Shown: piece after piece, positions 3,482 through 32,518 of the stretch | Layout of the letters: each line of letters begins with the position of its first letter | How positions within the stretch are numbered: the first letter of the stretch is position 1 | Notes under the pieces: model-generated | Told to the model about the DNA's origin: nothing | Database searches by the model: none | What the model saw: only the letters and a program-made list of their open reading frames with translations | From: Verrucomicrobiota bacterium | GTDB lineage: Bacteria; Verrucomicrobiota; Kiritimatiellia; SS1-B-03-39; UBA6053 | DNA: 64,000 nucleotides | Assembly (NCBI GenBank): GCA_020831625.1 | Contig: JAFIGD010000002.1 | Span: forward strand, 62,001 to 126,000 | Reading direction: 5' to 3' | Made by a program: the position numbers and the translations under genes

Positions 3482-3622
3482 GAACCACGGATGGACACGG
3501 ATGGACACGGATATGACACAGATTTAATCGTGAAGAATTGTATTCGTATCCTAAGCTCAAACAACTCTGTAAAGGGTTACATAACCTCTGCTCCGTGTTC
3601 ATCCGTGTTTATCCGTGGTTAA
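3482..3622. repeat. Inverted-repeat element of the CCACGGATGGACACGGAT type
   Basis: The gap between coxD and heme O synthase starts with AACCACGGATGGACACGGA (3483-3501) and a further partial copy. It ends with the reverse complement (3591-3622, CCGTGTTCATCCGTGTTTAT and CCGTGGTT). The two arms enclose about 80 bp of AT-richer sequence that looks non-coding. The same motif recurs upstream of gyrB at 17632-17664. This looks like a dispersed, non-autonomous intergenic repeat. Translated short reading frames through it are not credible genes. Confidence 0.75.
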
Positions 3623-15009: not shown

Positions 15010-17529
<2,520 letters not shown>

Positions 17530-17553
17530 TTAATGGGGGGAATCCTGGCCCGG

Positions 17554-17605
17554 ATTTTCCGAGGATCGGAAAATGACACCGCCGCTTTTCCGATGTTCGG
17601 AAAAG
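17554..17605. repeat. Two tandem palindromes TTTTCCGA-N3-TCGGAAAA upstream of gyrB
   Basis: 17554-17574 and 17585-17605 are perfect inverted repeats with 9-bp arms and 3-base centres (GGA and TGT), 31 bp apart centre to centre. They sit in the 250-bp gap between gyrB and the upstream gene. No T-tract follows in either direction, so a simple terminator is unlikely. They could be a paired operator sensing supercoiling or growth, or a dispersed hairpin repeat. Confidence 0.75.
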
Positions 17606-17631: not shown

Positions 17632-17664
17632 TTAAACCACGGATGGACACGGATAAACACGGAT
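17632..17664. repeat. Second copy of the ACACGGAT-type intergenic repeat
   Basis: AACCACGGATGGACACGGAT followed by AAACACGGATC matches the arms of the element at 3482-3622. Here only one arm is present. Confidence 0.8.
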
Positions 17665-17684: not shown

Positions 17685-18467
17685 TCAGTACCCGAGGGAG
17701 AAGCCGCTGAGGGGTTCGGCGGTGGAGATGCCGATGCTGGAGGAAAAGGCGTCGGAGTTGGGTTGGACGCGGACGCGGGTTCCCGGTTGCGGCGTCTGCG
17801 GCTGGGGACGGGGGTGGTGCACGAACGGGGGATGCCGATAGGGCTGGCGCTGGCGGTGTGCGTGGTGAATGACCGGCCAGGGGGTGACGTATTGCACCCG
17901 GGTCGGGGTGTTGAGGGTGCGGGCGGTGTTCTCGGCCTGTTGCGCCCGGAATTCGGCATCGGCGACACGCCGTTCCACGTTGGCGAGGCGGTCGGCGGTC
18001 CGCTGGCGCTCGGCATCCGCCTCGGCGGCGGCTTTGGCGTCGGTGTATTGCACAAACACATCGACCTCGGGGAATTCCCGGCGGAAATCCCGCCAGAACG
18101 CGTAGCGCTCGGCGGCGGGGCGGGTGCGGAAATCGGAATCGGCCAGGCGTTCGGCTTTGACGGCCTCGCCGCGCTCGCGCCGGGATTCCGATTCGCGGGC
18201 CTGCCGCTCGCGCCGGGCTTCGGCGGCGGCTTCGGAAATCAATTCGATGCGGATGACGAGTCCTTCGCGGAGTTGAACTTCTCCCCGTTCATAGAACAGG
18301 CGTTCGAATTCGCCCATTTCAATGCGGCCTTGAGGCTGTCCCAGCGCCTCAAGAACGGTCAGCCGGTCGTCGCCAATCCGGAGGTCGGCGAACAGGGGGA
18401 GCGTGAGCAAACCGCAGAGAGCGGCTCCAACTATTCGGGCGGTACAGGAAGTGAATCTGACGTTCAT
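17685..18467 (-). CDS. Secreted coiled-coil protein with His/Pro-rich C-terminal segment
   Basis: About 260 residues from MNVRFTSCTARIVGAALCG, a signal peptide preceded by AAAGGA; an upstream extension reads through tandem repeats and is not real. After cleavage (LPLFADLRIG) comes a short domain (IGDDRLTVLEALGQPQGRIE) typical of SmpA/OmlA-like outer-membrane small proteins, then a long, charged, Arg/Ala/Glu-rich coiled coil (residues about 75-190). The C-terminus is His/Pro/Gln-rich (HHAHRQRQPYRHPPFVHHPR). I do not recognise the whole protein; an envelope structural role is a guess. Confidence 0.65.
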   Translation of the reverse strand: MNVRFTSCTARIVGAALCGLLTLPLFADLRIGDDRLTVLEALGQPQGRIEMGEFERLFYERGEVQLREGLVIRIELISEAAAEARRERQARESESRRERGEAVKAERLADSDFRTRPAAERYAFWRDFRREFPEVDVFVQYTDAKAAAEADAERQRTADRLANVERRVADAEFRAQQAENTARTLNTPTRVQYVTPWPVIHHAHRQRQPYRHPPFVHHPRPQPQTPQPGTRVRVQPNSDAFSSSIGISTAEPLSGFSLGY

Positions 18468-31420: not shown

Positions 31421-32518
31421 ATGACAAGACCCCCTGCGACCATTGCTTTGGAAGACGGAACCCTTTTCACCGGACGCGCGTTTGCCGGACGCGGCGAAGT
31501 GGAGGGCGAACTCGTTTTTAACACCTCCATGACCGGCTATCAGGAAATCCTGACCGATCCGTCCTACCGCGGGCAGATTGTGACGCTTTGCTATCCGCTG
31601 ATCGGCAATTACGGGATCGCGGCGGAGGACATGGAGTCCTACCGGCCGCATGCCGCCGGTCTGGTGGTGGGCGAATGCAGCCGGATTGTCAGCAACTGGC
31701 GGTCGGTGATGTCGCTGCCGGCGTATCTCGAGGAAAACGGCATTCTGGGCATCGAGCGGGTGGACACCCGGGCGATCACCCTGCATATCCGCGACAAAGG
31801 GGCGATGAAGTGCATTATTTCCACCGAAGACAGCGACCGGGACAGTCTGGTGGCCAAGGCTAAAGCGAGCCGGGGGCTGGTGGGACGGGATCTGGCCAGC
31901 GAGGTCAGTGTCAAAGAACCGATGATCTGGCAGCCGGAACTGCAAAAGAAAATTCTCCGCCGGGTGGCGACGATTGACTGCGGCACCAAGTACAACCAGT
32001 TGCGGATTCTGCAGGATCTTGGCTGTGAAGTGCATGTGTTCCCCAACAACACCACCGCCGAGGACATTCTCGCGATCAAACCCGACGGACTGTTCCTGTC
32101 CAACGGCCCCGGCGATCCGGAAGGGGTCTTGCAGACGGTTTCCGAAGTTCGGAAACTGATCCATACCGGTCTTCCGACCTTCGGAATTTGCTTCGGGCAT
32201 CAGTTGACCGCCCTGGCACTGGGCGCGAAGACCTTCAAACTGAAATTCGGGCACCGCGGGGGCAATCAGCCGGTGATGAATCTGGCCAAAGGCACGGTGG
32301 AGATCACCGCGCAGAATCACGGATTCTGCGTGGACAAGGACAGTCTGGACCCGGCGGTGGCGGAAACGACGCACATCAATTTGAACGATCAGACCTCGGA
32401 AGGCCTGCGGCACAAAACCCTGCCGGTCTTCACGGTGCAATACCATCCCGAAGCCGCCCCCGGTCCGCATGACTCCATGTATCTCTTCCATGATTTTATG
32501 AAGAGCATGGGGGAATGA
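31421..32518 (+). CDS. carA: Carbamoyl-phosphate synthase small subunit
   Basis: Glutaminase subunit that delivers ammonia to CarB for carbamoyl phosphate, feeding arginine and pyrimidine synthesis. 365 residues from MTRPPATIALEDGTLFTGR. FNTSMTGYQEILTDPSYRGQ is the conserved N-terminal block. The class I amidotransferase triad is intact: Cys in FGICFGHQLTALALGA and His/Glu in VQYHPEAAPGPHDS. carB is not nearby, so the subunits are unlinked in this genome. A longer reading frame extends upstream into the nuclease gene but lacks homology. Confidence 0.98.
   Translation: MTRPPATIALEDGTLFTGRAFAGRGEVEGELVFNTSMTGYQEILTDPSYRGQIVTLCYPLIGNYGIAAEDMESYRPHAAGLVVGECSRIVSNWRSVMSLPAYLEENGILGIERVDTRAITLHIRDKGAMKCIISTEDSDRDSLVAKAKASRGLVGRDLASEVSVKEPMIWQPELQKKILRRVATIDCGTKYNQLRILQDLGCEVHVFPNNTTAEDILAIKPDGLFLSNGPGDPEGVLQTVSEVRKLIHTGLPTFGICFGHQLTALALGAKTFKLKFGHRGGNQPVMNLAKGTVEITAQNHGFCVDKDSLDPAVAETTHINLNDQTSEGLRHKTLPVFTVQYHPEAAPGPHDSMYLFHDFMKSMGE

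Follow-up and report, generated by a model that had tools for sequence, protein, structure and literature searches.

Why do two perfect palindromes lie side by side in the gap upstream of gyrB, and is gyrB the gene that they serve? The pair stands in a 64,000-nucleotide stretch of a genome from the class Kiritimatiellia (the window; the genome is called the host genome below), and a first-pass annotation of its letters saw in it either the sites of a dimeric regulator or a family of hairpin repeats. The explanation that we prefer, and which we believe about as much as we doubt, is that the palindromes are in-phase sites for a putative dimeric protein, spread over the whole chromosome with a probably architectural role, and that they form an element specific to this class.

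The palindrome pair upstream of gyrB

The letters agree exactly with what the first-pass annotation had described, namely two perfect palindromes with the same arms and differing centres, 31 bp apart between gyrB and its upstream neighbour. Palindrome 1 (TTTTCCGAGGATCGGAAAA, positions 17555 to 17573) is built as TTTTCCGA-GGA-TCGGAAAA and palindrome 2 (TTTTCCGATGTTCGGAAAA, positions 17586 to 17604) as TTTTCCGA-TGT-TCGGAAAA; the 31 bp from start to start include a 12-bp spacer (17574 to 17585), a part of the element that is largely unconserved genome-wide. Each palindrome is extended by one further complementary base pair (A-T, C-G), which gives 9-bp arms at 17554 to 17574 and 17585 to 17605 and a span of 17554 to 17605 for the pair. 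When up to three mismatches are allowed, the window holds four matches to the motif; 100 dinucleotide shuffles averaged 0.37 matches and never exceeded 3.

The downstream neighbour of the pair, identified as gyrB by Pfam, occupies positions 15010 to 17433 on the minus strand, so that its start at 17433 places the palindromes ~121 bp upstream of the gene. Judged by GyrB, the closest relatives that carry a name belong to Kiritimatiellota. On the other side, our own hexamer gene finder predicts a gene at 17685 to 18410, also on the minus strand and with an uncertain start codon, and the pair lies ~82 bp past its predicted end. This position is what favours a specific operator controlling gyrB, and conservation upstream of gyrB in relatives had been named in the first-pass annotation as a check on that idea. 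The conservation is absent: no site with two or fewer mismatches was found upstream of gyrB in the relatives G001 (277 bp available), G002, G003 (two loci), and G008 (400 bp each), and the array closest to gyrB in G008 is ~3.8 kb off. Between gyrB and the pair, a block of 33 bp (17499 to 17531, minus strand) is conserved in G002 (L016), despite the absence of the palindrome pair there; a consensus scan called a terminator-like hairpin inside this block (17528 to 17511) and no sigma-70 promoter. The gyrB pair thus appears to be a lineage-specific array that happens to sit upstream of gyrB.

A second dispersed repeat, ACGGATNNACACGGAT, with a period of 10 to 11 bp, is found at window position 17638, ~35 bp from the pair, and also at 3486 and 3616 (minus strand); it has 27 matches in the 1.48 Mb of host genome examined.

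Copy number, array anatomy, and placement in the host genome

Counted over the full genome, as the first-pass annotation had suggested, the 15-bp core TTCCGANNNTCGGAA has 269 copies in 4.886 Mb, where an order-1 Markov model expects 0.97, and the reversed control pattern has none. Array anatomy was read from 80 stretches chosen around listed sites together with the window, 1.48 Mb that hold 197 of the 269 cores; for host contigs beyond C49, an array had to have an A- or T-centred member to enter the sample. The 197 cores form 103 arrays (19 single, 76 double, 6 triple, and 2 quadruple), and successive spacings below 200 bp are 30 bp once, 31 bp 80 times, and 32 bp 13 times, with no other value among the 103 arrays. 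Even the singles mostly have company, as 15 of the 19 have a partner with three or fewer mismatches 30 to 32 bp away (13 of these at one mismatch), and control offsets of 43 to 45 bp around the singles always gave at least six mismatches. Once mismatched partners (one to a few mismatches) are allowed, 99 of the 103 arrays have at least two sites. Outward, the arms continue as TT/AA; little information resides in the spacer or in the 3-bp centre. The element consists of at least two palindromes of 15 to 19 bp whose starts lie 30 to 32 bp apart, about three turns of B-DNA, and at this distance the palindromes face the same side of the helix. With 269 sites that are mostly paired, the host genome would hold ~140 arrays in total.

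Two further features of the arrays were observed. Single or outer palindromes at L096:2750, L109:2292, and L166:2268 are lengthened by a GC-rich stem, which makes a longer inverted repeat of them, as if merged with a terminator hairpin. On host contigs C2 to C48, 10 of 69 arrays lie less than 600 bp from a contig end, against 2.7% expected (P = 2e-5), and 11 of 69 lie within less than 1 kb; strain variation or assembly trouble near arrays may account for this excess.

Placement was judged against our own gene calls, in which starts are approximate, and 18 of the 103 arrays lie beside a stretch end and stay unclassified. The others are located in genes (28), co-directional gaps (31), convergent gaps (18), and divergent gaps (8). 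Arrays in genes are scattered in position and occur in all three frames, and no functional gene class is visibly avoided by the sites. All 13 of the 32-bp pairs in the host lie in genes, compared with 9 of the 31-bp pairs, the remaining 71 of which lie outside genes or at their edges; this split is not strict, as one 32-bp pair in G008 was called intergenic. Among 56 intergenic arrays, 20 lie no more than 16 bp after a stop codon, a count that none of 20,000 simulations of random placement within those gaps reached (8.5 expected) and that includes one array (L153) that reads as a gene start. Four intergenic arrays lie within 30 bp of a start codon, where 8.0 were expected. Arrays are mildly over-represented in convergent gaps (18 of 57, P = 0.029), and the depletion of divergent gaps (8 of 57 arrays, P = 0.15) is not significant.

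An operator of gyrB is hard to reconcile with a motif that occurs genome-wide in 269 copies, has at least 28 of 103 arrays in genes, prefers the stop side of genes, and has no pair at this locus in four relatives. We reject it on copy number, positions in coding sequence, and absence from relatives, and it has the least credence of all the readings weighed here. For annotation, the warning is that a palindrome in front of a gene such as gyrB is not necessarily an operator.

A regulator of transcription that acts globally through hundreds of operators, with every pair as an operator or a roadblock, would agree with tandem palindromes bound by a dimer, which is the operator geometry of NrdR, and with those arrays that do lie upstream of genes, as at gyrB. 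It agrees less well with placement: arrays inside genes are numerous and scattered, stop sides are favoured and start sides are not, convergent gaps are mildly enriched, and the gyrB pair is lost in relatives. NrdR boxes differ from this motif in sequence and form a few operators, at nrd genes, whereas the motif has hundreds of sites, both genic and intergenic. The likeness lies in the arrangement: NrdR dimers bind two palindromic boxes ~31 to 32 bp apart (PMC2892513), a distance that matches the one found here. NrdR was also considered as the binder itself and rejected: the geometry fits, but NrdR, which 94 of 97 genomes encode and almost always in one copy, is present with or without the motif. 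We consider a global regulator unlikely, although it is the strongest of the alternatives.

The clustering after stop codons would also suit an element that works as RNA, with tandem hairpins serving as terminators or as stabilisers of mRNA ends. The RNA fold of the gyrB pair is good (-23.1 kcal/mol, z = -3.46; none of 200 shuffles folded as well), and a few singles have the GC-stem extension; on the other hand, a fixed spacing of 30 to 32 bp has no reason in a flexible RNA, and positions inside genes do not suit such a role. The pair was not called as an intrinsic terminator in a scan, with T-runs before it and A-runs after it, which is the wrong polarity, and no Rfam match was found at the pair (a single sub-threshold match lies elsewhere in the window). 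An RNA-level element is therefore highly unlikely in our judgement.

Conservation of arrays in coding and intergenic DNA

Ten of the 28 coding arrays, chosen because they lie in recognisable conserved proteins, were traced into seven relatives (G001 to G005, G007, and G008). Family models assign their host genes to CarA, AlaS, IleS, PolX, 5-formyltetrahydrofolate cyclo-ligase, TrpC, monomeric isocitrate dehydrogenase, Kdo transferase (Pfam score above the cut-off, NCBIfam score below it), ATP-dependent DNA ligase, and flavin amine oxidase. The ligase gene (L137) matches TIGR04120 of NCBIfam, and this match to another ligase ruled out LigD as its identity.

Across the pair, 49 of the 50 ortholog alignments are ungapped (10 sites). 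At positions where the amino acid is unchanged, the same codon is used in 173 of 199 cases in the arms (0.87), 49 of 96 in the spacers, and 1,921 of 3,804 in the flanks (0.50); arms differ from flanks (Fisher P = 3e-26) and spacers do not (P = 0.92). Amino-acid identity is 0.84 in the arms, 0.41 in the spacers, and 0.76 in the flanks, which places the pairs in protein segments that are otherwise variable. Orthologous site positions number 94: an exact site stands at 49 of them, one with a single mismatch at 12, and one with at least four mismatches at 25, a distribution which indicates that coding sites are mostly kept whole or lost. Both sites are exact in six of seven relatives for flavin amine oxidase, five of seven for Kdo transferase, four of seven for CarA, and two of three for DNA ligase, and the single site in TrpC is kept in none of three.

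The window itself offers an example, as its second pair lies inside carA, the gene for the carbamoyl-phosphate synthase small subunit (31448 to 32518, plus strand). Site 1 (core TTCCGAAGTTCGGAA, 32138 to 32156) has two mismatches to the 19-mer and site 2 (core TTCCGACCTTCGGAA, 32170 to 32188), 32 bp from site 1, has three. Site 1 is exact in G001, G003, G007, and G008, has one mismatch in G005, and is lost in G002 and G004; site 2 is exact in G001, G003, G005, G007, and G008. Taken together, the ungapped ortholog alignments and the exact arm codons show that coding sites arose by substitution in place and not by insertion, and that the arms of coding arrays are under selection or drive as DNA letters.

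For nine stop-adjacent arrays with an ortholog in G002, the pair is kept there in two cases and a single site in one, and none of the nine was kept in G001, G003, or G008, bar one two-mismatch match that we took as chance. In L129 and L159, the arms are exact in G002 and the spacer and at least one centre have changed. No ortholog was found for L173. L153 reads in the host, G001, and G002 as the beginning of the following gene, in frame; it was treated as coding and left out of this intergenic tally, and it is kept in G001 and G002. By these cases, intergenic arrays turn over faster than coding ones.

The same comparisons bear on whether the palindromes are a mobile repeat, of the REP/REPIN type or another palindromic kind, that a Y1 (RAYT-like) transposase would move. 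Like REP, REPIN, and RAYT systems, the motif has closely paired palindromes in many copies, its distribution is patchy, and its two-palindrome units have variable middles. There is also a weak likeness among spacers: for 71 intergenic 31-bp pairs, the mean best identity is 8.03 of 12, against 7.44 (SD 0.12) in column shuffles, and 8 of the 71 reach 10 of 12 where 0.6 are expected, so a few arrays may be copies of others. The Y1_Tnp domain (PF01797) is present in 81 of 97 class genomes, including 24 of the 25 with at least 20 motif copies and 33 of the 46 with none, and its number correlates with motif counts (rho = 0.35, P = 5e-4, genome size uncontrolled). The correlation is mild and the anatomy of the sites contradicts a mobile repeat, and we rejected RAYT/REP as the source of the arrays. 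Coding pairs align to orthologs with no gap and with host codons in the spacer, the same site positions recur across genera, and, in contrast to REP-like elements, only the arms recur while spacers are host sequence that is not shared between arrays, with no insertion at coding sites; in addition, G054 (91% complete) has 105 copies and no Y1_Tnp match. A mobile repeat is thus very unlikely. The first-pass annotation had taken copies in the hundreds at random intergenic positions as the mark of a repeat family; the copies here do run to hundreds, yet they are neither random nor only intergenic.

Chromosome-scale distribution, dialects, and the putative binder

In G008 (B12222; complete chromosome CP120722.1, 4,432,027 bp), the one complete chromosome on which our test of evenness rests, there are 117 sites, and those listed form 67 arrays, on average 66 kb apart. 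The coefficient of variation (CV) of their gaps is 0.60, whereas random placement gives 0.99, and none of 50,000 random sets was as low. Beyond 3.709 Mb only C- or G-centred sites are included; the fully covered part of the chromosome, with 58 arrays, also gives a CV of 0.60 (0 of 20,000 random sets). A comparison of the gaps with an exponential distribution gave a weaker result than the CV test (KS P = 0.015). In the host, 39 gaps on contigs C2 to C48 have a CV of 0.72 against 0.93 (P = 0.024). No origin-terminus bias was seen for the 67 G008 arrays, whether the origin was placed at dnaA (KS P = 0.63) or at 0.55 to 0.70 Mb, where GC skew switches (P of at least 0.94). GC skew read from 20 stretches of G008 changes sign near 0.5 to 0.7 Mb and near 2.7 to 3.0 Mb, and dnaA is at 458; by its GC skew, the replication origin of this chromosome may lie away from dnaA.

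The full 19-mer is present in 35 of 97 genomes of the class and in 5 of 191 genomes of other classes, with one copy in each of the latter. A broader pattern, TTTCCRANNNTYGGAAA, occurs in 51 of the 97, of which 25 have at least 20 copies, with 1,080 in G017 and a maximum of 1,110 in G093; its reversed control matched once each in G085 and G086 among the 97. On this survey, the element appears to be specific to Kiritimatiellia and essentially absent outside the class. Families other than the host's use a CCAA half-site, whereas the host family uses CCGA. For the CCAA form, spacings below 130 bp were collected from 330 kb of 11 genomes with 83 sites: 22 bp (4), 30 bp (2), 31 bp (12), 32 bp (14), and 62, 63, and 93 bp (1 each). 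All are near multiples of 10.5 bp, and some of the long spacings contain a site with one mismatch. G072 has two mirror-symmetric arrays, L233:7082-7263 with seven sites and L234:6842-6992 with six, whose steps of 22-30-31-31-31-22 and 22-31-31-30-22 place 22 bp on the outside and 30 to 31 bp on the inside. Exact matching alone leaves many CCAA arrays single, namely 10 of the 14 from G044, 7 of the 12 from G017, and all 10 from G060 and G086. Of 31 CCAA arrays in the four genomes whose gene calls were usable, 3 lie inside genes.

Dialects raise the question of an uptake signal. Such signals are known in Neisseriaceae and Pasteurellaceae, and to our knowledge none has palindromic pairs at a fixed helical spacing. 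An uptake-signal-like watermark would be a self-recognition sequence, here with the dialects CCGA and CCAA, spread by molecular drive via natural transformation. Sites in coding DNA and just after stops, coding sites in variable protein regions, a change of dialect between families, and an even distribution would all be in keeping with it, as would over-representation in both coding and intergenic DNA, a trait of uptake sequences. DUS and USS are likewise genome-wide, lie in genes and at gene ends, and have dialects (PMC3630211 and PMC1852404), but they are non-palindromic, 9 to 12 nt long, and present ~1,000 or more times per genome, against 117 copies of the motif in G008 and 269 in the host. 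Known uptake signals reach 1,000 or more copies (PMC1852404), and about one array per 66 kb in G008 is far sparser. The analogy seems good in placement and dialects and poor in density, and we regard a watermark of this kind as quite unlikely.

Two other comparisons are instructive. HIP1 of cyanobacteria is also a short palindrome that is far over-represented, with its function described as unresolved (PMC4390886). It is a single 8-mer linked to DNA methyltransferases, whereas the palindromes here are paired 6-3-6 units at helical spacing in far fewer copies. The sites of Noc, SlmA, and MatP are palindromic and dispersed, number in the tens, occur also in genes, and serve nucleoid-linked proteins; they are biased along the origin-terminus axis, unlike the motif arrays, which are unbiased and paired.

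We return to in-phase sites for a dimeric protein. The resemblance to the sites of a dimeric regulator that was noted in the first pass holds in part, as arms are conserved, centres vary, the palindromes lie on one helix face at 30 to 32 bp, and the arms are selected at the nucleotide level in coding sequence; the operator at gyrB is the part that fell away. Fixed helical spacing, unconstrained spacers, selection confined to the arms, and a placement that does not follow promoters agree with a dimeric binder, and a putative dimeric, sequence-specific protein would occupy a pair of adjacent palindromes cooperatively, in the form of a dimer of dimers. With less support, this binder may be a nucleoid-organising or anchoring protein rather than a regulator of adjoining genes. 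Sites located anywhere in genes, no gene class visibly avoided, a preference for gene ends, and even spacing on one chromosome point to such a chromosome-wide role; a copy number of 0 to 1,110 within one class is odd for a basic chromosome function, and the many single sites in other families and the slight likeness among intergenic spacers also count against our explanation. No autoregulated binder was seen among 43 proteins (330 aa or less) flanking arrays and read by eye. LexA (by Pfam) and HU-like, XRE-like, Rrf2-like, and AraC-like proteins (by eye) each occur once near arrays, without a pattern.

We put forward more tentatively, as a possibility that we would not yet bet on, an undescribed chromosome-organising system of Kiritimatiellia, in which a putative dimer-of-dimers protein would use palindromes two or three turns apart at near-regular intervals, with sites kept across genera in housekeeping genes and a drift between CCGA and CCAA accompanied by co-evolution of the protein. 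The motif was not found described in the open-access literature, searched by sequence and for Kiritimatiellia together with palindromes; subscription papers lie mostly outside that search, and its novelty is provisional. Nucleotide-level selection on the motif in coding sequence, together with helical spacing and even intervals along the genome, points to a chromosome-scale DNA-protein system in a poorly studied class. The idea is directly testable, as a complete B12222 genome exists and the sites are predicted to the base, and the CCGA and CCAA dialects offer a natural record of half-site drift between families.

Pairs also occur on contigs of a viral collection, three with CCGA pairs and three with CCAA pairs. 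No binder was recognised in the two CCGA viral-contig stretches inspected. On one of these six contigs (IMGVR_UViG_3300042380_000665), a pair at L312:8129-8175 lies inside a 3,109-aa open reading frame.
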